Origin: an uncultured bacterium
GTDB taxonomy: Bacteria > Oederibacteriota > PGYV01 > Palsa-1178
Length of the DNA stretch: 64,000 nucleotides
Direction: 5' to 3'
NCBI GenBank assembly: GCA_937889595.1
Contig: CALAOR010000090.1
Location: forward strand, 1 to 64,000
The notes under the pieces are model-generated. The model had not been told where the DNA came from. It searched no databases and saw only the letters and a list, made by a program, of their open reading frames with translations. A program made the translations under genes and the position numbers. The number at the start of each line of letters is the position of its first letter. Position 1 is the stretch's first letter. Below are positions 33,765 to 53,108 of this stretch, piece after piece.

Positions 33765-35228
33765 ATGAAAAATAAGTTTTTAATAATTCCGATTCTATTG
33801 TCCCTTTTTGCCCATCCTTTATTATCCAAAACCACGATCACGCTCAATGAGTTCAACGGCGGGTCATTTTCCTTTAACCTGGGTTTTAATGCCGACTGGA
33901 TGTACGGCTCCCGCGGAGACGCGCTCAGGATGGGAGGGGCCATGTCCACGCTTGATAATACGCCGAGTTTTACCTCCTATAATCCGGCGGTACTGTGCTA
34001 TCTTAAATCAGGCACGGCATCTATGGGATTCGTGCCGGTGAGCATAATATCCAGTGATGTGTTTTACGGCATGGCAAAATCTTTTGCGGGCAACCAGCTC
34101 AAAGGCAATACTTTTAATGATTTTTTAAAAGGCACTGTAAATGACGCGTTAAACGGGAGCAATGGCCCTTTGAAGGATATCACCATAGCCCCGGGAGTGA
34201 CCACAAACGTGGACAATGTGGATGCGTCGTTCGGCCAGACAACGGGTCTTATGGGGTTTGAAATAATGGCGCCTTTTGCCAAAGGGCAGGCGGCTTTTGC
34301 TTTTGCCAGGGAAAACAAGGCTTCGGTGGACCTTTCCATGATGCTCACAGGGCTCGATGCCCTTGTAAATGTTAAAGACCCGTCGCAGCCTTTATTAAAT
34401 ATAGACATGAGGGCAAAGCTGAACGCAGTTTTAAATTTTCGCGCCGATAACATCGTGACTTCATTCGGAGTGGGCAGAAAACTCACGCCCGAGTGGGGAG
34501 TAGGCTGTGTGGCCGAACATTATGACTCGCAATTCCTGCTTGACGGCAAGGCTGAAGCCGACGGCACAGCGACATACAGCGGCACCACCATGTCGTTTAA
34601 CACAAACCCGGGCAACTCCCTGGAGCAGAGCGCGAACGCGGATATCAACGGCGAGGCATGGGGCTTAAGGTTCGGCACAAGTTATCATTTCCTGAAAGAT
34701 TCAATTGAACTCGGCGCTGATGTGTCTGTGCAGCCGCAGATAAACTATAGAGGCACTCCCGAAGTCATGATGCATACCATACCGGACACCATAGACCTTT
34801 CGGATTTCACAAAAACCCAGTTGCAGCCAATTACCATTACCAGCGGCTCTTTACAATTAAAGCTCCCGTCCTTTATCAGGTTGACCGCGGCATTTAAGGG
34901 CAGCGCCGTAATAAACTACACCCATTATTTTGACAGCTACAGACTGAAGTACAATAACGGCACCGACAACATGGAATTTGACCTGCAGATGATGGACTCG
35001 GCCAACCTTGGTTTTAACTTTGGAGTATTCCAGATCGGAGCGGGCGCCATATATACGAGGGTGTATGAAAAAACAAACGGGGTCCAGAAAAACATAGCCT
35101 GGCTGGCCATACCCATGTTTTCAACGGGCGCGGTCATACCCATAGGAGATTACCTGAAATGGGAGATCGACCTTTTTGTTTTCCCGATGTCCGTCCTGAA
35201 AACCGCGATAACGTACACGTTCTTATAA
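33765..35228 (+). CDS. Outer-membrane barrel protein, PorV/FadL-like
   Basis: A 487-residue protein with a signal peptide (KFLIIPILLSLFAHPLLS). Near the mature N-terminus, GSRGDALRMGGAMSTLDNTPSFTSYNPAVL resembles the aligned block of PorV/UPF0164 and FadL-like proteins (R-x-x-GMGGA-x-TA...NPA). Amphipathic strands fill the rest, and it ends in a terminal aromatic strand (AITYTFL). It is first in a three-gene set with the large surface protein and a second PorV-like barrel. Its cargo or function is inferred only. Confidence 0.78.
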   Translation: MKNKFLIIPILLSLFAHPLLSKTTITLNEFNGGSFSFNLGFNADWMYGSRGDALRMGGAMSTLDNTPSFTSYNPAVLCYLKSGTASMGFVPVSIISSDVFYGMAKSFAGNQLKGNTFNDFLKGTVNDALNGSNGPLKDITIAPGVTTNVDNVDASFGQTTGLMGFEIMAPFAKGQAAFAFARENKASVDLSMMLTGLDALVNVKDPSQPLLNIDMRAKLNAVLNFRADNIVTSFGVGRKLTPEWGVGCVAEHYDSQFLLDGKAEADGTATYSGTTMSFNTNPGNSLEQSANADINGEAWGLRFGTSYHFLKDSIELGADVSVQPQINYRGTPEVMMHTIPDTIDLSDFTKTQLQPITITSGSLQLKLPSFIRLTAAFKGSAVINYTHYFDSYRLKYNNGTDNMEFDLQMMDSANLGFNFGVFQIGAGAIYTRVYEKTNGVQKNIAWLAIPMFSTGAVIPIGDYLKWEIDLFVFPMSVLKTAITYTFL

Positions 35229-35246
35229 AATATTCCGGGAGGAAAC

Positions 35247-38200
35247 ATGAAAAAAAGTATTTTACTTTCCTTATTAATAGCAGCCTTTATGGCGTCCGCC
35301 TTGATAGCGGCGCCGAGGGTGACAGTGTACCCCAAGACGCTGGTACAAAATACCGCGTCCATAACCGTCAACTGGGATGCCAACGGCTCCCCGTATCCCG
35401 CGACCGAAACAGCAAATCTCGTCTACGGGGTATCGCCGCTTAACTATTACGGCTCAATACCGCAGACCGGATCCGGCACCTCAACATTTACCCCGAACAC
35501 TTCTGGTATGCCGGGCGGCGTGTATTACTGCAGGATATCGGACACGGTAAGCAACGAGACCTCATATGAATTTAAGCTGTATATCCAGGGAAGCAATTCA
35601 GTGCAGATGACCTCGCCGGCTAATGCGGCGGCTTTGGATACGTTAGTACCGCAGTTCCAGTGGAACCCGGTAGCTGGAGTGCCTTTTTACACCATCATGG
35701 TGTTTGATACGAACGCTGTCATTAATTTTTCCAGCGGGTCGCTGAGCATCACCGCAAATATCATCTGGGGCGCGACGACGGACCAGACGTACCTGACTTA
35801 TGGAAGTCCCGACCCCAGCGGGTATTTTGACAAGCTCTCACCGCCGCCTTTAATGAATGGACTGACATACTCGTGGGTGGTCCTGAATAACTATGACGGA
35901 ACGCCCGCCATGATGGCCGATAATTTCGCGGGCACCAGGATGTTTACGGTAAATCCGGCTGCGGCATGTTCCGCTGCCACGCTTACGGCGCCTGCAAATA
36001 ATGTAACTATAACCGCCCAGCCCATTACGCTGGTCTGGTCCGCCGCGACAGGAGCGAATAATTATAAGGTAGTAATCATGAAAAACCTTACAGGCGAGAC
36101 CCAGGGCGCTTTTGGAAGCGCCACTGTGCCGCTCTGGAGTGGGTACACGAACGGAACGCAGATAACAATACCCCAGAACATCGCCATGAACGACGGCTGG
36201 TACCAGTGGTATGTTATCGCGCTTGACGCGACAGGCAAGGGCGTGAAAAGCCTGGTCCGGGATTTCCACTATAGCCCGACCCCGGGAGACTCATCCGTGA
36301 CCCTGCAGTTAAATGAAAACGGGCCGACCGGCGTTACTTCCGTTCCTAACGCAATTGTATTCATAGACACGACATTAGGCGGCAATGTAAATGTATACCC
36401 GCTTATAGCTTCCGACACGGGCGGATTTTTCTTCGACATGCAGCCGGCGCAATATACGTTCACGCTTCAAAAAGCCGGGTTCATAAATGCCTCATATACG
36501 CGTACTATAGGGGTTTCGGCTTTTGCAGATACTTTCATTATGACAAGATGCGCCTACGCGATACGCGGGGTTGTCAAAGACAACTTAAACAGCACAGTGG
36601 CGGGCGCTTTGGTCAGGGCGGGCCAGGCAGGAAATACTTATTCGACCAATACCATAGCGGACGGTTCGTTTGTGATATACATACCGGCAAGCGGCAATTG
36701 GGCAATTAATGTCACAAACGCGGGCTATCAGCCCCTGGATACGGTTGCGGTTGTGCCTGCGGGCGCGCTTTCGCTTAACGAATATATATTGCCGTCCACG
36801 CTGGTGATAACCAAAAATGTGAATACGCTTACAGGCAGGGTCACCAACGGCACAGGACAGGGGGTTTTTGACGCGCAAGTCCTGGTTAGCGAAAGCGGGA
36901 ACCCTTCCAATTCATATCCGGTGAGCACTGATTCAAGCGGGAATTATGTGGTGGACCTTCCGGACGGCACATGGGTTGTCAATGTCACAAAACCCGGTTT
37001 TGTTTCTCCGCCAACAGCCGGAGTTTCCATATCAGGCGGCGGAGCTGCTGTGCGTGATTTCACCATGCAGCCCCAGGCAAATACAATATCAGGAAATGTG
37101 AAGGATAATCTCGGTAATGCCATGCAGGGGGTAACTGTCACAGCCGTATCAACAGGGAACCCCACGGTGCTGGTCCTCACTGACGTATCGGGAAATTACA
37201 GCTTAAGCGTAGGTACTGGAAGTTATAACGTAAATGCGGTGTTAAGCAGCTGGCAATATTTCGCGCCAAGCACACAGATAGTTGTAATTTTCGCCAATCC
37301 GGGATTGCCTCCGAGTTTAAATAATAATTTTGTGCTTATTAACAGCGCACCGTCCGCCAATGCTTCGGCTTTGGTATCCGTAAAATCAGGCGCATTACCC
37401 ATAGCCGGCGCGAACGTTACACTTTCAGGAAATCAGCCCGCGACCCTTGGCTTCCTCGGCAGCGGCATCACGGACGCGCAGGGTTCGATCACGATAACCG
37501 CTCTTGCCGCGGGCCAGTACGCGCTGACCGTTGTTAAGACGGGATATGCCACGTTTACAAATAATGCAGTCGTGCTTGTGAACAATACTGTAACCACTGT
37601 TAACGCGGCTATGACGGCAAATCCGGCGGTGGGAACAATATCAGGCACAACAGGAGTCGGCGCTTCAACAGTGCAAATATTTGACCAGGCAAATCCGGGG
37701 ACGGCGCTTTATACCCTGACCACGGACGGAACCGGAGGCTATACAAGCGCTTCAATATCTTACGGAAATTACATTGTAAACGCTTATAAGTCGGGGTATT
37801 CATCATCCCCCCAGCAGCTGTACGTAGCGCTCGCGAGCGCCGCTTCCGCAGGAAATAACTTCACACTTACAGCTGCATCAGGCGGAGGCATATTAATCAC
37901 GGCCCCGTCAGTGCCTATATATAATGAGAACATAGGCGGGCCGTATCAGTTCACAGCCGCCTATATCGACGGCCTTGGCAACAATGTTTACGCGGTATTC
38001 GTATGGAGCGTGGCGCCTGCAGCCGGCGGCGTCATCAGCGCGACAGGCGTATTTACTCCGACATCCGATTATATAGGGCCGATCACCATTAATGCAGCGG
38101 CGCTTAATACCATAGGCTACTCGACAGTGCCGGTTTACCAGAAGATAAACCCGTCATACGCGGCAGTGACAGTAAAAGATTACGCGGGCATGATCCTATC

Positions 38201-38843
38201 CATACCCGCCAACGCAGCGTCCGCGTCCAATTCCATTGACAGGTTTACCGTGGCAAAAACCGATGTGGACAGGTCAAGAAGCAATACGACAACAAAAAGG
38301 GTTGTCGGGAAAGTATATAACCTGACTTCAGGTTTTACTTTTAACAGCAATCTTACGCTCACCCTGCCGATCACGGCAGGACAGGGCATAGGCACGGAAA
38401 AGGTCGGGTTATGGGACGTCCCGAACAATACCTGGGACGACATAGGCGGGACCGTAACAGGCGGCTCAGTGTACACAACTATCACACACTTCTCGGAATA
38501 TACGGTGCTTGCGGCACTGGGTTCCATAGGATTGGCATACAATGACAATACGCCCAATCCGTTCTCCCCGGACAAAGGGCCGATATTGATAAAGTATGTA
38601 ACTGATTCAAAAGTCGCATCGAGTGTCAAGACGACCATCAAGGTGTTTAACATGGCGGGCAAGTTTATCCGCACAATACTTGACAAAGGCTTAAGGCCGG
38701 TCGGGGTCCTGTACACGGATAGCTGGGACGGCAAAGACGAGCGCGGCAGGGTCTGCTTAAACGGCAGGTACTTCCTGCAGATAGAAGTTGAGGACTCTTC
38801 CGGCAAGAAGCAAAAAATCTACAGCATAGCGCTGGTTAAATAG
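35247..38843 (+). CDS. Large multidomain surface protein with carboxypeptidase-regulatory-like repeats and FlgD-like C-terminus
   Basis: A 1198-residue exported protein (signal MKKSILLSLLIAAFMASALI). Domains in order: Ig-like strands (about 25-115), fibronectin-like sandwich (115-345), then at least five carboxypeptidase-regulatory-like modules starting near 350, 440, 528 (TGRVTNGTGQGVFDAQVLVS), 613 (ISGNVKDNLGNAMQGVTV) and 705. A further Ig-like region (about 880-955) and a ZU5-like stretch follow. The last 100 residues (NPFSPDKGPILIKY, VFNMAGKFIRTIL, WDGKDERGRVCLNGRYFLQIE) match FlgD-Ig / type IX sorting-like domains. It probably is a surface adhesin or scaffold. Confidence 0.8.
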   Translation: MKKSILLSLLIAAFMASALIAAPRVTVYPKTLVQNTASITVNWDANGSPYPATETANLVYGVSPLNYYGSIPQTGSGTSTFTPNTSGMPGGVYYCRISDTVSNETSYEFKLYIQGSNSVQMTSPANAAALDTLVPQFQWNPVAGVPFYTIMVFDTNAVINFSSGSLSITANIIWGATTDQTYLTYGSPDPSGYFDKLSPPPLMNGLTYSWVVLNNYDGTPAMMADNFAGTRMFTVNPAAACSAATLTAPANNVTITAQPITLVWSAATGANNYKVVIMKNLTGETQGAFGSATVPLWSGYTNGTQITIPQNIAMNDGWYQWYVIALDATGKGVKSLVRDFHYSPTPGDSSVTLQLNENGPTGVTSVPNAIVFIDTTLGGNVNVYPLIASDTGGFFFDMQPAQYTFTLQKAGFINASYTRTIGVSAFADTFIMTRCAYAIRGVVKDNLNSTVAGALVRAGQAGNTYSTNTIADGSFVIYIPASGNWAINVTNAGYQPLDTVAVVPAGALSLNEYILPSTLVITKNVNTLTGRVTNGTGQGVFDAQVLVSESGNPSNSYPVSTDSSGNYVVDLPDGTWVVNVTKPGFVSPPTAGVSISGGGAAVRDFTMQPQANTISGNVKDNLGNAMQGVTVTAVSTGNPTVLVLTDVSGNYSLSVGTGSYNVNAVLSSWQYFAPSTQIVVIFANPGLPPSLNNNFVLINSAPSANASALVSVKSGALPIAGANVTLSGNQPATLGFLGSGITDAQGSITITALAAGQYALTVVKTGYATFTNNAVVLVNNTVTTVNAAMTANPAVGTISGTTGVGASTVQIFDQANPGTALYTLTTDGTGGYTSASISYGNYIVNAYKSGYSSSPQQLYVALASAASAGNNFTLTAASGGGILITAPSVPIYNENIGGPYQFTAAYIDGLGNNVYAVFVWSVAPAAGGVISATGVFTPTSDYIGPITINAAALNTIGYSTVPVYQKINPSYAAVTVKDYAGMILSIPANAASASNSIDRFTVAKTDVDRSRSNTTTKRVVGKVYNLTSGFTFNSNLTLTLPITAGQGIGTEKVGLWDVPNNTWDDIGGTVTGGSVYTTITHFSEYTVLAALGSIGLAYNDNTPNPFSPDKGPILIKYVTDSKVASSVKTTIKVFNMAGKFIRTILDKGLRPVGVLYTDSWDGKDERGRVCLNGRYFLQIEVEDSSGKKQKIYSIALVK

Positions 38844-38851
38844 GAGGCACC

Positions 38852-39781
38852 ATGAAAAAAACATCCCTTTTCGCGGCAGTGTTAATATTCTCGGGAAGCA
38901 TGATTTTCGCGGGGCAGCCCATGACTCCCGGCGCTTTCATAGACATAGGCCTTGCCAGGCCGTCTGCCATGGCCGGCGCTTTTACGGCGGTCGCGGACGA
39001 CGCGTCCGCGGTATTTTACAACCCGGCGGGAATTGTAAATTCACAGTACAAGGATTTTACCTTTATGTACACCAAATACAAAGGCATTGTCCCGTATAAC
39101 ATATCATCGGTTATCTGGCCGATAAACGAGAACAGGGGAGTCGGCCTGGGCGTTATAGTATCAGGGGATTCTTTGTTCGATGAAAAAACACTGCTCTTTT
39201 CATACAGCGAAAAACTGGACTGGCTGATAGGCAGGTTCGGGGTGAAAGGATTGTGCATCGGCGCAAGTTTTAAACTGCAATTCGCGGGCTTTGGAAATAA
39301 TACAGACGGCTCCCCCGACAGGGTGCAGGGAAGCGCGGGCGGCTTCGGTTTGGACCTCGGAGTGCTTTATGCAGTCAGCCCCGAGATACAGGTCGGCGCT
39401 TTTGTCAGGGACGCGCTGTCCGCGATCTGGTGGGGTTCAAAACTGGACGGCACAACGAATAATTATCTGCAGGGCGTGGGATTGACCACTGATCTGGGCC
39501 TGAGATACAAGATAAAGGACTTCCTGGTTTCCATGACCCTGTCCGATCTGGACAAACTGAAGATAGGGTTTGAAAAGACATTCTTTGATTATGTGGATAT
39601 AAGAGGCGGCTTCAGCCAGACCATGGATATTGAATCATATCAGGAATTTATGGTGGGTTTAGGGATTGGCCATTTTGTTTTCGGCCAGAGAAAAGAATTC
39701 TCCATGAACCTGGACTTCGCGTACCTCTTTGAAAGGCTGGATAATACGTTCAAGGTGCAGTGGAGCCTCAAGTATAAGTAA
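38852..39781 (+). CDS. PorV/PorQ-like outer-membrane protein
   Basis: A 309-residue protein with a signal peptide and the clear motif IGLARPSAMAGAFTAVADDASAVFYNPAGI near residues 31-60, the PorV/UPF0164 signature. Strands alternate through to a terminal VQWSLKYK. In Bacteroidetes PorV carries type IX cargo on the cell surface. Here it lies 8 bases after a gene whose product has a FlgD/sorting-like end, suggesting a related surface-display function. That link is inference. Confidence 0.82.
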   Translation: MKKTSLFAAVLIFSGSMIFAGQPMTPGAFIDIGLARPSAMAGAFTAVADDASAVFYNPAGIVNSQYKDFTFMYTKYKGIVPYNISSVIWPINENRGVGLGVIVSGDSLFDEKTLLFSYSEKLDWLIGRFGVKGLCIGASFKLQFAGFGNNTDGSPDRVQGSAGGFGLDLGVLYAVSPEIQVGAFVRDALSAIWWGSKLDGTTNNYLQGVGLTTDLGLRYKIKDFLVSMTLSDLDKLKIGFEKTFFDYVDIRGGFSQTMDIESYQEFMVGLGIGHFVFGQRKEFSMNLDFAYLFERLDNTFKVQWSLKYK

Positions 39782-42417: not shown

Positions 42418-43911
42418 ATGTACCTGTTGGGATATGATATAGGCAGTTCGTCGATCAAAGCCGCCCTCATAGACGCTGAAACCGGAAAAACAGCGGCGTC
42501 AGCCTCGTCCCCGTCAAAAGAAATGGAAATAATCGCCAAAAAAGCCGGATGGGCCGAACAGGACCCGGAAATGTGGTGGGAAAACCTGAAATCCGCCACA
42601 AACCTCATAAAAAAATCTGCAGGTTCAAAAGTTAATGATATTAAAGCCATCGGCATATCATACCAGATGCACGGCCTTGTATGCGTGGACGCCGCGCAAA
42701 AGCCGCTCAGGCCCGCCATAATCTGGTGCGACAGCAGGGCAGTAAAGCTCGGTGAAAAAGCCGCGGGAAAAATAGGGATTAAAAAATCACTTGAACACCT
42801 CCTGAATCTTCCTGGAAATTTTACCGCAGCCAAGCTTGCATGGGTAAAACAGAACGAACCATCCATTTATAAAAAAATATATAAAATAATGCTGCCGGGC
42901 GATTATATTGCCATGAAATTAACCGGCGGGATTGCCACGAGTTATTCGGGTTTGTCCGAAGGTATATTCTGGGATTTTAAAAAGGGCTGGATATCCGGGA
43001 TGCTCCTTGACGCTTTTGGCCTGGATAGGAACCTTCTTGCAGACGCGGGGCCGTCTTTTTCCGTGCGCGGCGTTGTGTCGCAAAAGGCCGCGTCCGAGCT
43101 GGGTATAAATGCGGGTATAAAAGTTTCATACAGGGCCGGGGACCAGCCGAATAACGCGCTGTCCTTAAATGTGCTTGAGCCCGGCGAACTCGCGGCAACA
43201 GCCGGCACTTCGGGAGTCGTGTACGGCGTCTCTGACAGGCCCTCCTATGACATCAAGTCCAGGGTCAATACTTTTGTCCACGTGAACCATACCAAAGACA
43301 ATCCAAGATACGGAACCCTGATGTGCTTAAACGGCACGGGGATATTGAACAGCTGGCTGAGAAAAAACATAACGGACGGCCTTGACTATGCGGATATAAA
43401 CGCGATAGCGGCGGGAGTCGCGCCCGGAGCTGACGGGGTCTTCATACATCCGTACGGCAACGGCAGCGAAAGGACGCTTGAGAATAAGCCTTCCTGCGCC
43501 ATTATTTCAGGCTTGAGCCTTACAACGCATACAAAGGCGCATTTATTGAGGGCGGGCCAGGAAGGCATAGTTTTTGCCCTGAATTACGGCATTGAAATAA
43601 TGAAAGAGATGGGCATAAAAGTAAAGAAAGTAAGGGCCGGACATGCCAATATGTTCTTAAGTCCGGTATTCCGCGAAGTATTCGCGGCTGTAACAGGCGC
43701 GGAAGTGGAATTATATGACACTGACGGATCGCAGGGAGCGGCAAGAGGCGCGGGGATCGGCGCGGGAATATTTAAAAATAACAGGGACGCGTTCAAAGGG
43801 CTGAACATACTCAGCACCACCGCGCCTGATAAAAAACTGGTGAAGTCCTACGTGGGTTTTTATAAGGAATGGAAACAGATATTAAACAATATTTTATTGT
43901 CAAAAGTATAA
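42418..43911 (+). CDS. xylB: Xylulokinase (FGGY family)
   Basis: A 497-residue cytosolic kinase phosphorylating D-xylulose to xylulose 5-phosphate. The N-terminal ATPase strand LLGYDIGSSSIKAALIDAETG, substrate motifs GISYQMHGLVCVD and PAIIWCDSRA, the catalytic Asp in RAGDQPNNALS (D242) and the C-terminal RAGHANMFLSPVFREV agree with FGGY sugar kinases. CCGGAGG precedes the ATG. The neighbouring isomerase supports the xylose assignment over other pentuloses. Confidence 0.9.
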   Translation: MYLLGYDIGSSSIKAALIDAETGKTAASASSPSKEMEIIAKKAGWAEQDPEMWWENLKSATNLIKKSAGSKVNDIKAIGISYQMHGLVCVDAAQKPLRPAIIWCDSRAVKLGEKAAGKIGIKKSLEHLLNLPGNFTAAKLAWVKQNEPSIYKKIYKIMLPGDYIAMKLTGGIATSYSGLSEGIFWDFKKGWISGMLLDAFGLDRNLLADAGPSFSVRGVVSQKAASELGINAGIKVSYRAGDQPNNALSLNVLEPGELAATAGTSGVVYGVSDRPSYDIKSRVNTFVHVNHTKDNPRYGTLMCLNGTGILNSWLRKNITDGLDYADINAIAAGVAPGADGVFIHPYGNGSERTLENKPSCAIISGLSLTTHTKAHLLRAGQEGIVFALNYGIEIMKEMGIKVKKVRAGHANMFLSPVFREVFAAVTGAEVELYDTDGSQGAARGAGIGAGIFKNNRDAFKGLNILSTTAPDKKLVKSYVGFYKEWKQILNNILLSKV

Positions 43912-43945
43912 AGCATTCACCAACATGCCGCGTAAGAACAAAGTC

Positions 43946-44056
43946 CGCAACCTGAAGGTTGCGCCTACACGGGCAAGAAAGCTATAAGCAAAATGATGAA
44001 CTGAGACAGGCGGGTTGGTTAATATTTGATTATGTAGGCGCAACCTTCAGGTTGCG
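43946..44056. repeat. Perfect inverted REP pair between xylB and xylA
   Basis: A 23-base unit (CGCAACCTGAAGGTTGCG plus CCTAC, 43946-43968) recurs in perfect inverted form at 44034-44056 (GTAGG plus the palindrome). The GTAG feet face inward here, the reverse of the usual REPIN. A further perfect 14-base palindrome CGGCTTTAAAGCCG (44086-44099) lies just before the xylA ribosome-binding site. Confidence 0.75.
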
Positions 44057-44120
44057 GCTCTTGTACGAAATGCTGGAATTAATCCCGGCTTTAAAGCCGT
44101 ACTTTATCAGGAGGAATAAC

Positions 44121-45245
44121 ATGGAAAAGAGTTTTCACTCTATCTGTAAATGGACCTTTAACTCGGGCAAGGGCGGTTTTGTGCCGTCAATGATAAGGCC
44201 TGCATGGTCTTCGGAGAATCTGGACACTGTCGGTATAATCGGGATAATAAAGGACAAGGTCGCGCCGCGGCTGCCAAAGAACATAACGCTCGGTTTTGAG
44301 GCGCATTACAACGGCGAATATAACGAAGATAACGCGGCTTATATAGCCGACGCGCTTGTGGACGCGGGCATGTATCTTGCCATGGCGACCCCGGGAGCGC
44401 ACACGCAGTTCGCGTATGGGGGAATTTCGTCGCTCGACCCGGATGAACGCGCAAAGGCCTGTGAGTTCGGCGCGAGAGCGCTGGAACTTGCCTATGGACC
44501 GCTCAAGAAAGCGTGGCACCCGAAAAAGCAGCCTACGTTTGTCCTGTGGAACGGTTCATTCGGGTATGACGTGGCCACGGTGGGCATAGCAAAGATGTAC
44601 GGGTATTTAAAGAAGAACGTGGCGGACCTGTGCAAGCTGGAAAAAAAGCTAGGCGGTAAAATGATGATAGCGATCGAACCCAAACCCAACGAAGGCCATC
44701 CTGCCATGCTGCTGCCCACTGTTGCAAGCGCCATAATATTCTGGAAAAAACTCGGGGAGGAATACGGCATAGACGTGAAACGCACCGGCGTGAACAAGGA
44801 ATTCGGCCACTCCGAGATGATAGGGCTTGACCACGTGTACGACACGGTGGAAGAGATCGATAACGGAATGCTCGTGCATATGCACTTAAACAGCCAGGGC
44901 TACAATGACGGCATAATCATGGGCGGCCCGGGGAAATACGATATAGACAACGGCTGCAGGGTGAACGGCATGAACATCGCGATTGCCGGTCTCATACAGC
45001 AGGCAGGATACTCAAGGTGGAAGGGCCACGACATGCAGGCGCGCGCGTATGACAACGAGGAACAGGCCATAGACAGGGTGGTGCGTTCCGTGCTTTCGTG
45101 GGAAGCATGCGCTATCGCGGCGGAGAACATAGATTATAAGAACTTAAATAAAGTGCTTGAGAACAGGGAAACGGCAAAGGCTGAAGACGTCATGAGGAAC
45201 GCCGTGGTAGAGGCGCAGAAGACGTTTAATAAGCTGTATAAATAA
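44121..45245 (+). CDS. xylA: Xylose isomerase-family protein
   Basis: A 374-residue TIM-barrel sugar isomerase, predicted to convert D-xylose to D-xylulose in the cytosol with divalent metals. Metal and active-site stretches are FVLWNGSFGYD, MIAIEPKPNEGHPAM, GVNKEFGHSEMIGLD and the MHLNSQGYNDGI region. The ATG at 44121 follows CAGGAGGA; an upstream frame reaches into the repeat and is not used. It diverges from classical XylA motifs, so another aldose substrate is possible. xylB just upstream supports xylose. Confidence 0.82.
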   Translation: MEKSFHSICKWTFNSGKGGFVPSMIRPAWSSENLDTVGIIGIIKDKVAPRLPKNITLGFEAHYNGEYNEDNAAYIADALVDAGMYLAMATPGAHTQFAYGGISSLDPDERAKACEFGARALELAYGPLKKAWHPKKQPTFVLWNGSFGYDVATVGIAKMYGYLKKNVADLCKLEKKLGGKMMIAIEPKPNEGHPAMLLPTVASAIIFWKKLGEEYGIDVKRTGVNKEFGHSEMIGLDHVYDTVEEIDNGMLVHMHLNSQGYNDGIIMGGPGKYDIDNGCRVNGMNIAIAGLIQQAGYSRWKGHDMQARAYDNEEQAIDRVVRSVLSWEACAIAAENIDYKNLNKVLENRETAKAEDVMRNAVVEAQKTFNKLYK

Positions 45246-45312
45246 AAAATATACAGAGAGTAGATAGTAGAGAGTAGACAAGGCAAGGTCAAAAATATCC
45301 CGGGGGATGATA

Positions 45313-46764
45313 GTGAAAAAATTATTGATGTTAATATTGGCGGCTGCAATATCCGCAGGCTGTGCTGCTCCGGCAGTGATAAATACGCAGGATAAAAAGG
45401 AAGCTGTAATGACGGAACCGGTTAAAGACCTGGAAACCATCCAGCGGGATTTTGTGGAACTGCGATACGGCATGTTCATACACTTCGGTATCCTTACATA
45501 CACCGGAGTCTGGTCGCAGGCCAACCTTGACATCACAAAATTTAACCCTGAAGAGCTCAACCCCGGCCAGTGGGCGGATACGGCCAAGGCCGCGGGTATG
45601 AAGTTCGGCGTATTGACAACAAGGCACCATGACGGGTTCGCGCTCTGGCCGACCAATGAGGGCGATTTTTCCGTGAAAAATATCCCGTGGCGCGGCGGCA
45701 AGGGCGATGTGGTGCGCGAATACGTGGACTCTTTCAGGTCGCGCGGATTACTGCCGGGACTGTATTATTCGGTTTGGGACAATACCCAGGGTGTGGGCAA
45801 CCATCCTATAAAGCCCGGCGAGATAGAATATGTGAAAGCCCAGCTCAAAGAACTCCTTACGAATTACGGCCCCATTCCCATACTTGTTCTTGACGGTTAC
45901 TCGTGGAAGATGGGGCATAAAACAATACCCTATGATGACCTGCGCGCTTTTGTAAAATCAATTCAACCGAACTGCCTTGTAGTTGACCACACGCACCTAC
46001 AGTGCCTGTATGATAACGATCTTCTGGTATTTGAGGAACCTAAAGGCGTATTTGCGCCAAAGGGCAATATATTAGCGGCCGCCCAGGACAACAAGATAAT
46101 AGGCGGCAATGACTGGTTCTGGGGCGAGCAGACCGAAAAAGAAAACCCCATGAGCGTGGATGATATAGTGGAAAAACATTTAAAACCGCTTGAGGAGCGC
46201 TATACGGTATTCATTCTGAACTGTCCTCCGAACAGGAAGGGCCTGCTGGACGATAAAATTGTTAAGGTGCTCACCGAAGCCGGCAAAAAGTGGAAACCAA
46301 ATATGAAAAGGCCGCTTTTGCCAAAACAGCCGCCGCAAAATGAATATCCCGTGACAGCAGTATCAGCCGGGGCCACAAGCGGCAAAGCTGCCTTTGCCAT
46401 AGACGGACAGAACGACTCATATTATTACTCCGTATGGGAAACATCGAAGGATTTACCGCAGTCGATAACGCTTGACCTTGGCAAAGATTATGACGATATA
46501 GGGATACTGTGCTATGTTCCGAAATATAAAACAGTTGAAACTCCGACAGACGAGGGCGCGGTCACATCATATGCGGTTTATGTAAGTGAAGACAATGACA
46601 AGTTCATAAAGGCATGCGAAGGAAAGTGGAAGGCCGACAGTTCTATGAAAACCGTTGTTTTTAACCCTGCAAAAGCAAGATACGTGAAGTTCGAGGTGCT
46701 GGAGGCGAAAGACGGTTTCGGAGCCGCCACGGAGGTTAGCGTGGGAAGGGTTTTGAAAAAATAA
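45313..46764 (+). CDS. GH29 alpha-L-fucosidase, lipoprotein, with C-terminal F5/8C-type domain
   Basis: A 483-residue exported lipoprotein (lipobox AAAISAGC). The GH29 barrel begins ELRYGMFIHFGILTYTGVWS and holds TRHHDGFALWPT and the probable nucleophile Asp (D194) in PILVLDGYSW. Residues from about 345 form a discoidin-like sandwich (ATSGKAAFAIDGQNDSYYYSVWE; ITLDLGKDYDDIGILCYVPK). It should release alpha-fucose, as found on xyloglucan side chains. The GTG at 45313 is spaced better from GGGGG than the ATG at 45307. Confidence 0.9.
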   Translation: MKKLLMLILAAAISAGCAAPAVINTQDKKEAVMTEPVKDLETIQRDFVELRYGMFIHFGILTYTGVWSQANLDITKFNPEELNPGQWADTAKAAGMKFGVLTTRHHDGFALWPTNEGDFSVKNIPWRGGKGDVVREYVDSFRSRGLLPGLYYSVWDNTQGVGNHPIKPGEIEYVKAQLKELLTNYGPIPILVLDGYSWKMGHKTIPYDDLRAFVKSIQPNCLVVDHTHLQCLYDNDLLVFEEPKGVFAPKGNILAAAQDNKIIGGNDWFWGEQTEKENPMSVDDIVEKHLKPLEERYTVFILNCPPNRKGLLDDKIVKVLTEAGKKWKPNMKRPLLPKQPPQNEYPVTAVSAGATSGKAAFAIDGQNDSYYYSVWETSKDLPQSITLDLGKDYDDIGILCYVPKYKTVETPTDEGAVTSYAVYVSEDNDKFIKACEGKWKADSSMKTVVFNPAKARYVKFEVLEAKDGFGAATEVSVGRVLKK

Positions 46765-46790
46765 TTCGTTGTATATATTTTTTTGCACGC

Positions 46791-46895
46791 GTAGGGGCGG
46801 ACCTATGTGTCCGCCCCTACGCGGGCTTTGGATGTGCTGTTGCAATGCTGTAGTTCAAAAACCAACAGCGGGCGGACACATAGGTCCGCCCCTAC
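46791..46895. repeat. GTAGGGGCGG-type inverted REP pair
   Basis: Left unit 46791-46820 reads GTAGGGGCGGACCTATGTGT then CCGCCCCTAC, a palindrome with GTAG/CTAC ends. The right unit (46871-46895) is the inverted copy, GGCGGACACATAGGTCCGCC plus CCTAC. It lies between the fucosidase and the GH2 gene. Confidence 0.75.
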
Positions 46896-46938
46896 GGTGA
46901 ATGTAAATATTTAAGGACAAACTATCAGGGAGCACAAC

Positions 46939-49614
46939 ATGTCAAAATCAAAGAACATAAACACCGCGCGCGAGCGCGTCCTTTTCGATGCCGGCTGGAA
47001 ATTCCAGAAGCACGACCCTGCCGCGCATCCACAGATGATCCCGATAACCAGGTGGAAGGTAAAGAACATTGGCAAAGACAGACCCTTGAACGACTCAATG
47101 GCCGCCTCTGACGTTTCAACCGGCGGCTGGCTCACCCTCAAACCCGGCGAGGATGCCTTTGACAAGACGCCGGGTTTTGCCTGGTTCAAAGCAGACCTTC
47201 CGGCACTCAAAGGGCCCGACCGCATACTTCATTTCACTTCAGTCAGCGACGCCGCGGCTGTATATCTTAACGGCGTCAAACTTTATTACCATGAGATATG
47301 GACCGAACCTTTTGAAGTGGACCTTAAAGCCGCCTGGAATGAGAAAGGCTTAAACCATCTGGCAGTGCTGGTGGAGAACTGGTACGGCATCGGTTACATA
47401 GATGAAGCAAACCTGGAACTGCATATCCCGGAAACGGTTTTAAGCGGCCCTGCGGCTATGAAATACGACGACACCGCATGGAGGAGCGTCAATCTCCCAC
47501 ATGATTTTGTAGTGGAAGAAAAGTTTGACGGAACGCTAAAGGAAGCAAGCCATGGATACCTTCCGAAGCATGTGGGCTGGTACAGGAAAACATTCGCGGT
47601 GCCATTATCCGACAAAGGCAAAGCCATATGGGTCGATTTTGACGGCTCGTTCAGGAATACGCGGGTTTGGATAAACGGGCATTACCTAGGCAGGCATTGG
47701 AGCGGATACACCGGTTTCAGGTTTGACATATCAAAGTATATAAATTACGGCAATTCAAATACCATAGCCGTCCGCGTGGACGCGCGCGGGCATGAAGGAT
47801 GGTTTTACGAAGGCGGCGGCATATACCGCCATGTATGGCTCAATAAAGCAAGCACTGTTCGTGTGGAACCATGTGGCGTATATATAGTATCCAAACCGCA
47901 TGGCAAAACCGCTTTGATAGACGTTGCTACAACAGTTATAAATGATACTGAAAAGCCCGTTGAAGTTTTTGTAACTCACGAGATAAAAGACGCGAAAAAT
48001 AAGATTGTGGCAATTTTTTCGGCCAAGGGCAAAGTCAAGGCAAAAGCCGTGATAAAAGCAAAAAGGAAATTATCAAAACCGGCTTTATGGTCGGTGGACG
48101 CCACGAATTTATATAAACTCATAACCACCATCAGGTGCGGCGGCAAGATCATAGATAAAGTGGAAAACACTTTCGGCATACGCTCGATAAAATACGACCC
48201 TGACAAAGGGTTCCTTTTAAACGGCAAACAGGTATTTTTAAAAGGAACCTGCAACCATCAGGACCACGCGGGCATAGGCGCGGCAATAACTGATTCAGTC
48301 TTTAAATTTCGCATAGAAAAGCTCAAGGAAATGGGTTCAAACGCCTACCGCTGCGCTCATAACCCGCCTGCAACGGAACTTCTGGATGAGTGCGACTCAC
48401 AGGGGATGCTCGTGATAGACGAGAACAGGAGATTAGGGGACGCGCCTGAGAATGTTTTCCAGGTTGAATCCATGGTAAAGCGCGACCGCAACCATCCTTC
48501 CATAATAATGTGGTCCATATGCAATGAGGAAAAAGAACAGGGAACGGGCCTTGGCAAAAAAAGGGCCTTAGTGCTGAAAAAAGTAATAAACAAACTCGAC
48601 CCATCCAGGCCTATAACCGCGGCCATGAACGGCGGGTGGGGCGGCGGCATATCGGATGTAATAGATTTGCAGGGATTTAATTACAATATAGTCCAGTACG
48701 ACCCGTTCCGCAAAAAATTTCCCAAAATGCCCATGTACGGCAGCGAGACCGGAAGCACGGTTTCCACAAGGGGAGAGTATGTAAATGATCTGGAAAAAGG
48801 TTATGTGAGCGCGTATGACGTCAATCAGACCGAGTGGTCGCATACGGCGGAAGAGGCATTGGGGCCAATAATGAAAAGGCCACACATATTCGGGACATTC
48901 ATATGGACAGGTTTTGACTACCGCGGGGAACCAACGCCGTATGGCTGGCCGTGTATAAGCTCGCATTTCGGTATAATTGATACGTGCGGCTTTCCAAAGG
49001 ATAATTTCTACTATTACCAGGCGAGGTGGGGTAATAAAGACGTGCTGCATATATTCCCGCACTGGAACTGGCCGGGAAAAGAAGGACAGGAAATAGACGT
49101 GTGGTGCCATTCAAACTATGACCAGCTTGAACTTTTTGTGAACAATAAGCCAAAAGGCTTAAAAGAAATGCCGGAAAACGGACATATTTCATGGAAGGTA
49201 AGGTATGAGCCGGGCGAGCTAAAAGTAAAAGCGTACAAAAAAGGCGTTTTTGCCGTGGAAAAAATAATTGCAACCACGGGAGCGCCTGCTTCGTTAAGGT
49301 TAAGGGCATGGAAGATAAAAATGAAACCCGACGGCCAGGATACTGTACCTGTGACGGTAGAGATCCTGGACGCGCAGGGAAGGATAGTGCCTATAGCGGA
49401 TAACCTTGTGAAGTTCACAATCACGGGCCCCGCAATCATATCCGGCGTAGGCAACGGCAACCCGTCAAGCCACGAGCCTGACAAGGCGGAACAAAGGCAG
49501 GGATTTAACGGGTTGTGCATGGTTTTTGTGAGGGCGGGGTTTAAGGAAGGAAAGGTCGTTTTGAAGGCGGAGTCCGTTGGGCTGAAGGGCTGTGAAATGG
49601 AACTGATGATTTAA
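46939..49614 (+). CDS. GH2 beta-galactosidase-type glycoside hydrolase
   Basis: An 891-residue protein with no signal peptide, hence probably cytoplasmic. Two successive N-terminal jelly-roll parts (about 60-150 and 155-300) precede an Ig-like domain, the TIM barrel (about 395-670) and Ig-like C-terminal domains. The acid/base Glu is E530 in IIMWSICNEE; the probable nucleophile is E603 in MYGSETGS. GH2 includes beta-galactosidases, mannosidases and glucuronidases; galactosidase fits the xyloglucan context. The first jelly roll is an extra module. Confidence 0.88.
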   Translation: MSKSKNINTARERVLFDAGWKFQKHDPAAHPQMIPITRWKVKNIGKDRPLNDSMAASDVSTGGWLTLKPGEDAFDKTPGFAWFKADLPALKGPDRILHFTSVSDAAAVYLNGVKLYYHEIWTEPFEVDLKAAWNEKGLNHLAVLVENWYGIGYIDEANLELHIPETVLSGPAAMKYDDTAWRSVNLPHDFVVEEKFDGTLKEASHGYLPKHVGWYRKTFAVPLSDKGKAIWVDFDGSFRNTRVWINGHYLGRHWSGYTGFRFDISKYINYGNSNTIAVRVDARGHEGWFYEGGGIYRHVWLNKASTVRVEPCGVYIVSKPHGKTALIDVATTVINDTEKPVEVFVTHEIKDAKNKIVAIFSAKGKVKAKAVIKAKRKLSKPALWSVDATNLYKLITTIRCGGKIIDKVENTFGIRSIKYDPDKGFLLNGKQVFLKGTCNHQDHAGIGAAITDSVFKFRIEKLKEMGSNAYRCAHNPPATELLDECDSQGMLVIDENRRLGDAPENVFQVESMVKRDRNHPSIIMWSICNEEKEQGTGLGKKRALVLKKVINKLDPSRPITAAMNGGWGGGISDVIDLQGFNYNIVQYDPFRKKFPKMPMYGSETGSTVSTRGEYVNDLEKGYVSAYDVNQTEWSHTAEEALGPIMKRPHIFGTFIWTGFDYRGEPTPYGWPCISSHFGIIDTCGFPKDNFYYYQARWGNKDVLHIFPHWNWPGKEGQEIDVWCHSNYDQLELFVNNKPKGLKEMPENGHISWKVRYEPGELKVKAYKKGVFAVEKIIATTGAPASLRLRAWKIKMKPDGQDTVPVTVEILDAQGRIVPIADNLVKFTITGPAIISGVGNGNPSSHEPDKAEQRQGFNGLCMVFVRAGFKEGKVVLKAESVGLKGCEMELMI

Positions 49615-49659
49615 TATTGGATCACGTTCGTTTTATAACGCGGCGTTTAAACAACGTGC

Positions 49660-49684
49660 GGGTCGCCCACCGGGCGACCCCTAC
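49660..49684. repeat. Single REP, GGGTCGCCC type
   Basis: GGGTCGCCCACCGGGCGACC followed by CCTAC: a palindrome with a GTAG foot on the minus strand. It lies between GH2 and the arabinofuranosidase gene. Confidence 0.65.
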
Positions 49685-49707
49685 GAAGTCAAATAAAAGG
49701 AGATCAC

Positions 49708-51693
49708 ATGCGTTTAAAATCTGTTTTGGTCCTGTTTTTGTTACTGCTCACTTCCATCTGCCTCGCCGACGCGGTTGAAACCACCATCGACATCAATGCC
49801 GCGGTTACGGTCAACACTTTCAGGCCTTTCAACATTTTCGGCAACAATGTCAACGGCTGGTCCAACCCTGTCCCGCTCAAGGACAAGATCCAGGGAGCGG
49901 GCAACTTTATCCTTCGCTATCCCGGAGGCTCCTGGGGTGACTCTTTTTTTTGGAACGGAAACGGGGATTATGACGCCTCCGGCAACTGGGTGGCGAGCGA
50001 AACCGAGTACACCAACAGCAAAACAATGAAGGATAACGGCATGCTTTACGACGCCGCGAAAATAATCGACGGCAAGGATGAGACAGCCTGGCGCTCGAAC
50101 GCGGACACTGATTTCCCGAAGGCACAGTGGGTTTACGTGGACCTGAACAACAAGAGGATGCCCGACAAAGTAGTCATAACATGGGGTGACAAAACAAACA
50201 AGGAATATCCATATGCGAAGAGGTTCTCGGTGCAGTATTGGGACACTAAGGAACCGAGGCAGTGGATGCCATACGGCGCGCCGAATAATGCGTGGCTCGA
50301 CACTTCGGCGAAAAATCTCACAAGCACCGGCGGGACCCAGGAAATTTCTTTTGAACCGGTGGAAGCGCATTATGTGCGTATTTTGATGACGGAGAGTTCT
50401 GCTGGAAAGAATGGGACATATTCCATGGCTTCGATCAAGGTTTACGAAGACGGCAAGGAACTTGAGATAAAGGATAATAATGCCATAGTGGCCTCGTCAT
50501 GCAACAGCGCCTGTGAGCTCGGTGACAGGCAGATATTCGGGTTTGATGATTACATGAAATTCATGAAATCCTTCGAGCCAAAAGCGGAGCCGCTTATTAT
50601 AGTAAATGTCGGCAGCGGCACGCCGCAGCTTGCCTCCTCATGGGTCAAGTACGCCAATATCACAAAAAAGTACGGCATCAAGTATTGGGAAATAGGCAAT
50701 GAGAACGGCGGCCAGTGGGAAGTGGGCGGCCCTATGAACTATTATGATTACACGAGGAAGTTCATAAAATTATACGAGGCCATGAAAGCCGCTGATCCTT
50801 CCATCACGATAATAGCGCAGGGGCAGTTTGACGGCAACTCGCAGAACTTTGATGGAGTGCCGCTCATAAAGGCCATCGCCGACAGGCTGGCAAAAGAGAA
50901 AAAGGTCAAGTACCTTTCCGGCGGGATTGTAACGCACCAGTATCCCTCATGGGGCTCGACAGTCGAGGCCGTCCTCGCGTCGCCGGAAAAGAATTTTGAC
51001 GACATGGACAAAGCCATAAAGGAACAGCTTAAGGGATATCCGGAGCTTGCCAATATACCCGTATGGATAACCGAGTTCAATTCTGAAGGCAATTTAAAAC
51101 CCAGGAATATATCGACCCGCCTTGACAACGCGCTCTTTATCGCGAACTATATCGCCGAGTTTATAAAACATTTCGGGAGCCGCGGGCACACCAACATGTG
51201 GGACACGATAAACGGCGGCGATGCCCTGACCAACGTGAACGGCGGCGACCACGGTTATTTGCAGGCTGACGACGGCCCGTACAAAAACCAGGAAAGGGCC
51301 ACATACTGGGCCATGAAAATGCTTACGAATTACTGGTCCAAGAGCGGCGACACGGAAGTACATAAGCTTGTGGATACAAAGTCATCGGAGAAATTCCTCG
51401 CGGCGTACACGGACCTAAAACCGGATGGAAGCCTGTCGTTAATTGTTGTCAATAAGGATCCCAAGGCCCCGTATAAAACAACAGTCAGCGTCGCGGGTTA
51501 TAAAGCCGCGTCCGAAGCGAAAGTATACAGTTTTGACAAGTCAAACTACGACTGGAAAACAGACAATGCCCCATACCATGCTGACCCGGACAACGCGCCG
51601 TCGGAGTCGACGATAGGCAACGCCGGGGCAAAATTCGAGTACACATTCCAGCCGTATTCGATAACGGTGATAAGCATGAAGAAGGCGGAGTAG
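49708..51693 (+). CDS. Alpha-L-arabinofuranosidase-like enzyme with inserted F5/8C-type domain
   Basis: A 661-residue exported enzyme (signal SVLVLFLLLLTSICLADA). The barrel begins FILRYPGGSWGDSFFWNGNG (residues 68-87), as in GH51-like enzymes. It is then interrupted by a discoidin/F5/8C-like domain (about 112-250; AAKIIDGKDETAWRSNAD, VEAHYVRILMTES) before resuming at FGFDDYMKFMKSF. The acid/base is E332 in WEIGNENGG and the nucleophile E456 in VWITEFNSEG. A C-terminal beta sandwich follows. It probably removes arabinose from hemicellulose. Confidence 0.85.
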   Translation: MRLKSVLVLFLLLLTSICLADAVETTIDINAAVTVNTFRPFNIFGNNVNGWSNPVPLKDKIQGAGNFILRYPGGSWGDSFFWNGNGDYDASGNWVASETEYTNSKTMKDNGMLYDAAKIIDGKDETAWRSNADTDFPKAQWVYVDLNNKRMPDKVVITWGDKTNKEYPYAKRFSVQYWDTKEPRQWMPYGAPNNAWLDTSAKNLTSTGGTQEISFEPVEAHYVRILMTESSAGKNGTYSMASIKVYEDGKELEIKDNNAIVASSCNSACELGDRQIFGFDDYMKFMKSFEPKAEPLIIVNVGSGTPQLASSWVKYANITKKYGIKYWEIGNENGGQWEVGGPMNYYDYTRKFIKLYEAMKAADPSITIIAQGQFDGNSQNFDGVPLIKAIADRLAKEKKVKYLSGGIVTHQYPSWGSTVEAVLASPEKNFDDMDKAIKEQLKGYPELANIPVWITEFNSEGNLKPRNISTRLDNALFIANYIAEFIKHFGSRGHTNMWDTINGGDALTNVNGGDHGYLQADDGPYKNQERATYWAMKMLTNYWSKSGDTEVHKLVDTKSSEKFLAAYTDLKPDGSLSLIVVNKDPKAPYKTTVSVAGYKAASEAKVYSFDKSNYDWKTDNAPYHADPDNAPSESTIGNAGAKFEYTFQPYSITVISMKKAE

Positions 51694-52075: not shown

Positions 52076-52154
52076 AAAACGACAGTTTAATATAAACAGG
52101 TTAAAAAACACATTGGGCAAGCTTGTCCATGAATCTGCATTAAGGAGGCAAAAA

Positions 52155-53108
52155 ATGAAAAGAACGACAATGTCCGTCATTTTAATGTTTATTGCGGTGT
52201 TTGGCGCTATGGCGGACAGTTCAGAGGTCTCTTCACCGGCCTCTGATTATTCAGCTCTTGCAATAGTCCCCGGCGGCACATATACCCAGACCGATGAAAC
52301 CGGGATAAATAGTTTCCGCACTACGGTCTCCGCATTCAGGATGGGAAAGTATGAAGTGACGTATGAACTGTGGAACACGGTGTATCAGTGGGCAGTTGCC
52401 AACGGGTATGTTTTTCAAAATGCGGGCGTGGAGAGCCCCGGAAGAAAAGCCGGAGCCGCGCCTACGGACGCAAAGTATGAGCCTGTAGAGGCGGTAAATT
52501 GGCGCGACGCCATAGTGTGGTGCAATGCTTATAGCAGAAAATCCGGGTTGAAACCCGTGTATTATTTGGACCCGGGTTTTGCCGCGCTGATTAGAGATTC
52601 TACAAGCGGGGCTTATGCAGGCAGGACCTGCACGGCAGCCGGCTGTTATGATGATCCATATGTTAACTGGAACGCAAACGGTTACAGGCTGCCTACGGAA
52701 GCCGAATATCAGTATGCGGCAAGCTATAAAGACGGGTCAAACTGGACGCCGTATAATTACGCCAGCGGCGCAGCATCGGGCTATGCTGATGAGCCAGCAA
52801 CAGGACTTGTCGCGTGGTATCACGCAAATTCCGGGCGCGTTCCGCATGATGTCGGCGGCAAAAAAGCAAATGCGCTTGGCATATACGATATGTCGGGTAA
52901 TATGTGGGAATGGTGCTGGGACTGGTATGGGCCGTATCCAAGTGCGGCAACTGTGAATTACAGGGGACCTGCAAACGGTTCGAGCCGCGTGATGCGGGGC
53001 GGTTGTTTCAGCAATTACGCGGGCGGCATGCAGGTGGGCGAACGCGGCGTGAATCTTCCGTTCTTCCTGTTTGGCAGTGTAGGATTCCGCGTGGCGAGGA
53101 TTAAATGA
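52155..53108 (+). CDS. Exported formylglycine-generating-enzyme-like (SUMF1) domain protein
   Basis: A 317-residue protein with a signal peptide (SVILMFIAVFGAMA). The fold markers are MGKYEVTYELWNTVYQWA, PVEAVNWRDAIVWCNAYSRK, GYRLPTEAEYQYAAS, MSGNMWEWCWDWYG and SRVMRGGCFSNYA. The family holds sulfatase-activating enzymes but also many non-catalytic surface proteins. No sulfatase is nearby, so a structural or other role is as likely. TTAAGGAGG precedes ATG 52155. Confidence 0.88.
   Translation: MKRTTMSVILMFIAVFGAMADSSEVSSPASDYSALAIVPGGTYTQTDETGINSFRTTVSAFRMGKYEVTYELWNTVYQWAVANGYVFQNAGVESPGRKAGAAPTDAKYEPVEAVNWRDAIVWCNAYSRKSGLKPVYYLDPGFAALIRDSTSGAYAGRTCTAAGCYDDPYVNWNANGYRLPTEAEYQYAASYKDGSNWTPYNYASGAASGYADEPATGLVAWYHANSGRVPHDVGGKKANALGIYDMSGNMWEWCWDWYGPYPSAATVNYRGPANGSSRVMRGGCFSNYAGGMQVGERGVNLPFFLFGSVGFRVARIK

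Follow-up and report, generated by a model that had tools for sequence, protein, structure and literature searches.

A predicted cassette of cargo and shuttle genes for T9SS-related surface display in Goldbacteria, with no motor stalk detected

Three adjacent genes in a Goldbacteria genome probably form an operon-like cargo-shuttle cassette, part of a surface-display route that is related to the type IX secretion system (T9SS) and for which no motor stalk was detected. We place the probability of this reading, its proposed working included, at about 0.72. The cassette lies in the window, the 64,000-nucleotide stretch of DNA analysed here, on contig 90 of a 3.42 Mb genome that is 99% complete. 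The host phylum is called Candidatus Goldiibacteriota, or Goldbacteria, in this work.

The three-gene cassette

The three genes share one strand and are separated by gaps of 18 and 8 bases in the ORF list. They encode a 487-aa outer-membrane barrel (33765 to 35228, forward strand), a 1198-aa putative cargo (35247 to 38843, forward) and a 309-aa PorV-family barrel, the proposed dedicated shuttle or anchor for the cargo upstream (38852 to 39781, forward). Gene order and orientation were identical in all nine loci that have the three genes on one contig (L184, L185, L187 to L192 and the window; the contig of L192 starts within the first gene). Contig ends cut L186, L193 and L194, which were kept outside this count.

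The initial annotation had described the giant protein as bracketed by two PorV/UPF0164-type proteins, and the PorV likeness held clearly for one of them only. The 309-aa protein matched NF052325 (PorV2, E 1.1e-13) and the PorV/PorQ family NF033709 (E 3e-11), both under cut-off, with 43.5 bits in the latter case against a curated cut-off of 90. Its nine-member family nonetheless aligned over the full length with 27 PorV-family proteins from its own genome (hhalign E 9.4e-41). These profiles make it a distant relative within the PorV family. UPF0164 (PF03687) membership failed for both barrels, the 309-aa protein reaching 12.5 bits against a cut-off of 21.4 and the 487-aa protein giving no match.

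No Pfam or NCBIfam family matched the 487-aa protein alone. Similarity to FadL/OMPP1 appeared in four of the nine members of its family (best E 5.1e-5), and the family matched the PorV profile over 44 N-terminal columns around the NPA motif (E 8e-6). The protein is thus at best a distant FadL/PorV-superfamily barrel and not a second PorV. It is present as a single copy in 12 of the 41 phylum genomes, all 12 among the 14 genomes of the order and none among the 27 outside it. It is a fixed third member of this cassette and, at a guess, serves as a second anchor or an assembly partner. AlphaFold2 models predicted from single sequences were unusable for both barrels (mean pLDDT 31).

In the 1198-aa protein, a signal peptide (Sec-like N-terminus) is followed by an ectodomain of Ig-like/CarboxypepD_reg repeats; the Pfam match to CarboxypepD_reg (E 9.2e-39) covers five stretches, the best of which spans residues 527 to 608 (36825 to 37070, forward). 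Residues 1100 to 1198 (38544 to 38840, forward) form a C-terminal tail of the FlgD_ig/PorU sorting type. That the protein ends in a FlgD-Ig or type IX-like tail, as first proposed from the sequence, was borne out by profile matches: residues 1100 to 1189 matched the C-terminal part of PorU (NF033707, E 6.6e-5), with FlgD_ig (E 0.0055), CHU_C (0.022) and TIGR04183 (0.081) under cut-off. When the last 100 residues were searched alone, the matches were stronger for PorU (E 1.3e-6) and TIGR04183 (E 2.6e-4). A role as a FlgD hook-capping protein was rejected, since FlgD_ig scored 17.1 bits against a cut-off of 27 and the domain ends an exported protein of 1198 residues.

Orthologues of the cargo occupy the same position in nine other genomes. 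Identity was 48-91% in the tail and 44-76% in the ectodomain, and the tail was the better conserved part of each full-length orthologue, by 4 to 15 points. The middle gene of genome G003 encodes only 144 aa, a signal peptide plus the tail, with 55% identity across 99 tail residues; this natural minimal version of the cargo is known from that single MAG.

Elsewhere in the window, a glycan utilisation cluster (42418 to 51693) encodes an alpha-L-fucosidase, a GH2 glycosidase and F5/8 type C proteins, recognised by Pfam, beside a sugar-kinase-like ORF named from our own reading of its sequence.

Sorting-type tails and PorV-family proteins in the genome

The same tail recurred across the genome. 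There were 103 FlgD_ig matches, 85 of which fell into 59 ORFs in the stretches taken, whilst the other 18 lay outside those stretches or crossed their ends. The match ended within 30 residues of the C-terminus in 55 of the 59 tail ORFs. Tails on cytoplasmic proteins, which the initial annotation had named as evidence against a display route, were not seen. A crude rule assigned a Sec-like N-terminus to 49 of the 59. Of the remaining ten, six begin within low-complexity repeats or at or close to the edge of a contig or stretch, another is a fragment of 126 aa, and the start of one more is probably misassigned. This leaves two real exceptions, anti-sigma-like membrane proteins in which the tail is placed beyond the membrane segment. 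Altogether the genome encodes more than 50 exported proteins with tails.

Among 54 tails tested, PorU matched 47, TIGR04183 46 (E ≤ 0.01), FlgD models 38 and the type B model TIGR04131 four. A profile of the 54 tails ranked the PorU C-terminal domain (CTD) first in the PDB (6za2, E 5.7e-11), followed by FlgD (1.8e-10) and PorZ (5m11, 6.7e-7). This ranking indicates that the tail family is PorU/PorZ CTD-like and FlgD-Ig-like at the same time. The profile also matched, at about 0.002, the CTDs of 8glk and 8glj, entries that include SprA and PorV chains as well. Profiles were required for these comparisons, as phmmer with single proteins against the PDB returned FN3/titin or chance matches alone. 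FlgD_ig matches were found in 7 of 14 control genomes.

Several tail-bearing proteins deserve mention in their own right. At L083:2854-7344 (contig C10), a gingipain-like C25 peptidase carries a C25 propeptide, a CBM3 domain and a Por_Secre_tail match over cut-off; it is probably a cargo of the proposed route. Both anti-sigma-like proteins follow an ECF sigma factor and have PorV genes close by (L125:10868-12483 on C88 and L145:6638-8388 on C35). Each ends in a tail of the FlgD_ig/sorting type and has, as we read the sequence, one membrane segment. The sigma domains were verified by Pfam and the tails by profile match. In L125, a PorV gene and a gene for a 1325-aa tail cargo lie downstream of the anti-sigma-like gene.

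PorV-family proteins were likewise numerous. The family profile (PorV_fam) gave 41 matches in the window's genome, 31 of them above cut-off, which merged into about 38-39 loci; four other Goldbacteria had 29, 26, 31 and 10 matches, and six GldM-bearing Bacteroidota had 3, 4, 3, 4, 6 and 3. A profile built from 27 of the genome's own proteins recovered Flavobacterium johnsoniae PorV (6h3i_F, E 2e-39). By homology, a PorV shuttle of the T9SS kind is therefore predicted here. Three proteins of the genome (C76:9149-11224, C76:32071-34038 and C73:25959-28088) combine a PorV-type barrel, a FlgD_ig-like domain and a C-terminal, peptidoglycan-binding OmpA domain in one chain.

Tails and PorV genes were found side by side far more often than expected by chance. 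At 16 of 39 PorV loci a same-strand tail ended no more than 700 bases upstream, compared with a mean of 0.39 and a maximum of 3 over 1000 runs of uniform random placement; at 7 of 39 loci a tail lay downstream or in frame. At the level of ORFs, which covered 30 PorV ORFs (9 of the 39 loci falling outside this count), a tail ORF lay directly upstream of 18, with gaps of -4 to 162 bases, and 12 had no adjoining tail gene. A Mantel test found no significant correlation between the distances of the 18 tails and those of their PorV neighbours (r 0.153, P 0.09), and co-divergence thus does not support pair-specific matching.

An SprA relative and the search for a motor

The genome encodes a relative of SprA (Sov), the translocon for which the initial annotation had proposed looking. 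This 2131-aa protein matched TIGR04189 at 186.4 bits (E 5.5e-55), missing the equivalog cut-off of 200 bits, and its N-terminal part matched FN3 domains. An SprA match (E ≤ 0.01) was present in 37 of the 41 phylum genomes, three of them above the family cut-off; in this search G010 (99% complete), G023, G031 and G040 had none. All 19 full-length Goldbacteria relatives matched TIGR04189, and their profile recovered F. johnsoniae SprA (6h3i_A, E 4.9e-47), aligning profile positions 375-1363 with chain positions 150-1441 of 2403. Homology thus points to an SprA/Sov-type translocon in Goldbacteria. PF14349 (SprA_N) matched nowhere, controls included, and this uninformative probe was replaced by TIGR04189.

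In seven translated genomes of the order, a 220-aa protein, which we read as having a single transmembrane segment, is encoded upstream of SprA. On the downstream side, the window's genome has a gene for a tail-bearing FN3 protein of 1079 aa; in six other genomes of the order an ORF of 975-1076 aa, known by its length, lies there. SprA relatives also occur in records titled candidate division FCPU426, Candidatus Goldiibacteriota or Goldbacteria. Two records labelled Spirochaetia bacterium (L106) and Candidatus Methylomirabilis (L110) carry a Goldbacteria-type SprA and are probably mislabelled MAGs. Further relatives were found in Firestonebacteria (four loci) and Neomarinimicrobiota (two loci; L112, L113, L114, L117, L119 and L120 for both).

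PorM and PorN (GldM and GldN), which the initial annotation had listed alongside SprA as homologues to look for, did not turn up. GldM was found in none of the 11 Goldbacteria genomes searched by profile at E ≤ 1. As a control, the same model matched 15 of 61 genomes, 14 above cut-off, in the phylum of the Bacteroidetes MAG G041; this phylum-wide control was used in place of one on G041's own class, in which 0 of 31 genomes matched. GldN gave nothing significant in the 11 genomes, with one chance-level match (E 0.275), and was found in four of four controls. None of the GldL, GldM, GldK and GldN families appeared among the ORFs scanned around the SprA gene of the window's genome. Matches to GldK were FGE-domain paralogues, none above cut-off, and so say little about GldK itself; there are 13 such matches in the window's genome, one of which, an FGE-sulfatase domain protein (Pfam E 7.8e-35), lies in the window at 52113 to 53108. 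No PorU stood above cut-off among the matches listed for 21 genomes. The genome's own C25 protein was considered as PorU and ruled out by its CBM3 domain and tail, which make it more cargo-like.

These searches, which covered GldM, GldN and GldK among the motor and ring components, suggest that Goldbacteria may lack the PorL/PorM (GldL/GldM) motor, as judged from GldM, and the PorK/PorN (GldK/GldN) ring, as judged from GldN; a functional absence of the motor is a prediction. Because neither the motor stalk nor the ring protein was found, the route would have to be energised otherwise than the T9SS. With GldM and GldN not found, no PorU above cut-off and only one of the two barrels clearly PorV-like, the Goldbacteria route is, on sequence grounds, T9SS-related and not a bona fide T9SS. 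The initial suggestion of type IX-like or related surface display in the lineage was supported in its broader form, with SprA present and tails recurring on exported proteins.

We propose that Sec carries the 1198-aa cargo across the inner membrane, as the N-terminus of the cargo suggests, and that its C-terminal tail would then be recognised in the periplasm. The SprA relative, whose gene lies elsewhere in the genome, may provide the exit for the cargo, and the neighbouring 309-aa PorV-type barrel would capture the tail, so that the cargo remains displayed on the barrel. Anchorage would probably be non-covalent, on the barrel, and not via a PorU sortase. Many tail genes have a PorV-type gene directly downstream, and the encoded proteins may likewise act as pairs, each cargo having its own partner; transport, pairing specificity and anchorage are all predictions of this model, which is built on comparative evidence throughout.

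Could this be a complete but divergent T9SS, whose motor and ring fall below profile detection and whose many PorVs are ordinary paralogues? SprA is under cut-off in most genomes, so other parts could diverge further; the search left out GldL, SprE and PorD, and GldK-like FGE proteins exist. We nevertheless consider this unlikely, as the searches that found nothing significant for GldM and GldN in 11 Goldbacteria genomes succeeded in Bacteroidota, and no motor or ring family was seen near SprA.

The giant protein might instead be a periplasmic scaffold that aids barrel folding or tethers barrels to the cell wall, its tail docking from inside. Barrels fused to FlgD_ig and OmpA, together with the periplasmic tails of the anti-sigma-like proteins, suggest that tails may bind barrels in the periplasm. 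The family points outward, however, in that a C25 peptidase with a cellulose-binding domain bears such a tail, and SprA is present; we regard a scaffold as quite improbable. Still harder to sustain is the view that the tails are generic FlgD-like Ig folds with no sorting role and the PorV-type barrels unrelated transporters, neighbours by chance. FlgD models do match 38 of the 54 tails, and FlgD_ig is a broad Ig fold that is found in half of the control genomes. Against this stand the extreme C-terminal position of the tails, a pairing with PorV genes far in excess of chance, the larger number of tails matched by PorU and type A CTD models than by FlgD, and the persistence in G003 of the tail alone between both barrels. 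A T9SS-related cargo-shuttle cassette is thus our preferred reading.

Comparison with known secretion systems

The T9SS has been described as exclusive to Bacteroidota (PMC12618676) or to the Fibrobacteres-Bacteroidetes-Chlorobi group (PMC11205867), and a 2016 survey reported it in Bacteroidetes only (PMC4793230). Por sorting domains are also reported for Chitinispirillum, Melioribacter and Kryptonia (PMC4814513, PMC3534657, PMC4737851). A literature search for a secretion system or T9SS in Goldbacteria, with subscription papers and preprints outside its scope, found 'type IX secretion' in one reference list only. In PMC10994853 the T9SS is described as powered by the GldLM motor, and disruption of that motor in F. 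johnsoniae leaves cargo trapped on SprA. The presence of SprA, PorV and tails in a phylum where neither the motor stalk nor the ring protein is detected would reveal the core of the machine.

Tentatively, and with odds that we hold to be short of even, Goldbacteria (perhaps also Firestonebacteria and other SprA-bearing phyla) may possess a modular relative of the T9SS, ancestral or sister to it, that works without a motor. PorV-type shuttles would number in the dozens, each serving a type A-like cargo of its own, and would share a single SprA pore. Some of the shuttles would be fused to cell-wall-binding OmpA domains, and membrane anti-sigma factors that bear the tail themselves might signal to ECF sigma factors whether shuttles or the pore are occupied.

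Poribacteria, likewise outside Bacteroidota, resemble Goldbacteria in the large number of their exported proteins that carry TIGR04183-like tails, but PMC3909097 reports no structural Por genes for them, whereas Goldbacteria have SprA and PorV. How CTD proteins leave motorless cells, a gap stated for Poribacteria in that paper, would become testable in Goldbacteria.

With the type A branch of the T9SS (Porphyromonas, Flavobacterium), Goldbacteria share SprA, a PorV-family barrel and a CTD-like tail on Sec-exported proteins, all linked by profiles to solved chains. They differ from it in belonging to another phylum, in the lack of detected GldM and GldN in 11 genomes and of PorU above cut-off among the matches listed, in an SprA with N-terminal FN3 domains, and in tens of PorV-family proteins that are often paired with cargo. 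Whilst a single shared PorV is described for type A cargo of Bacteroidota, Goldbacteria cargoes appear to have PorV-type partners of their own.

In this respect the closer likeness is to type B cargo of F. johnsoniae, for which PMC12618676 and PMC9143113 describe a shuttle gene (PorP/SprF) directly downstream of the cargo and a barrel that is also proposed as surface anchor. By contrast, Goldbacteria tails are type A/FlgD_ig-like, with TIGR04131 in 4 of the 54, and the barrel is PorV-like. The link to the cell wall that F. johnsoniae PorP has through the OmpA domain of PorE, as described in PMC9143113, may be compared with the OmpA domains fused to PorV-type barrels in Goldbacteria. The cassette would carry the idea of a cognate shuttle, so far applied to type B cargo, over to PorV and to cargo of the type A-like kind.
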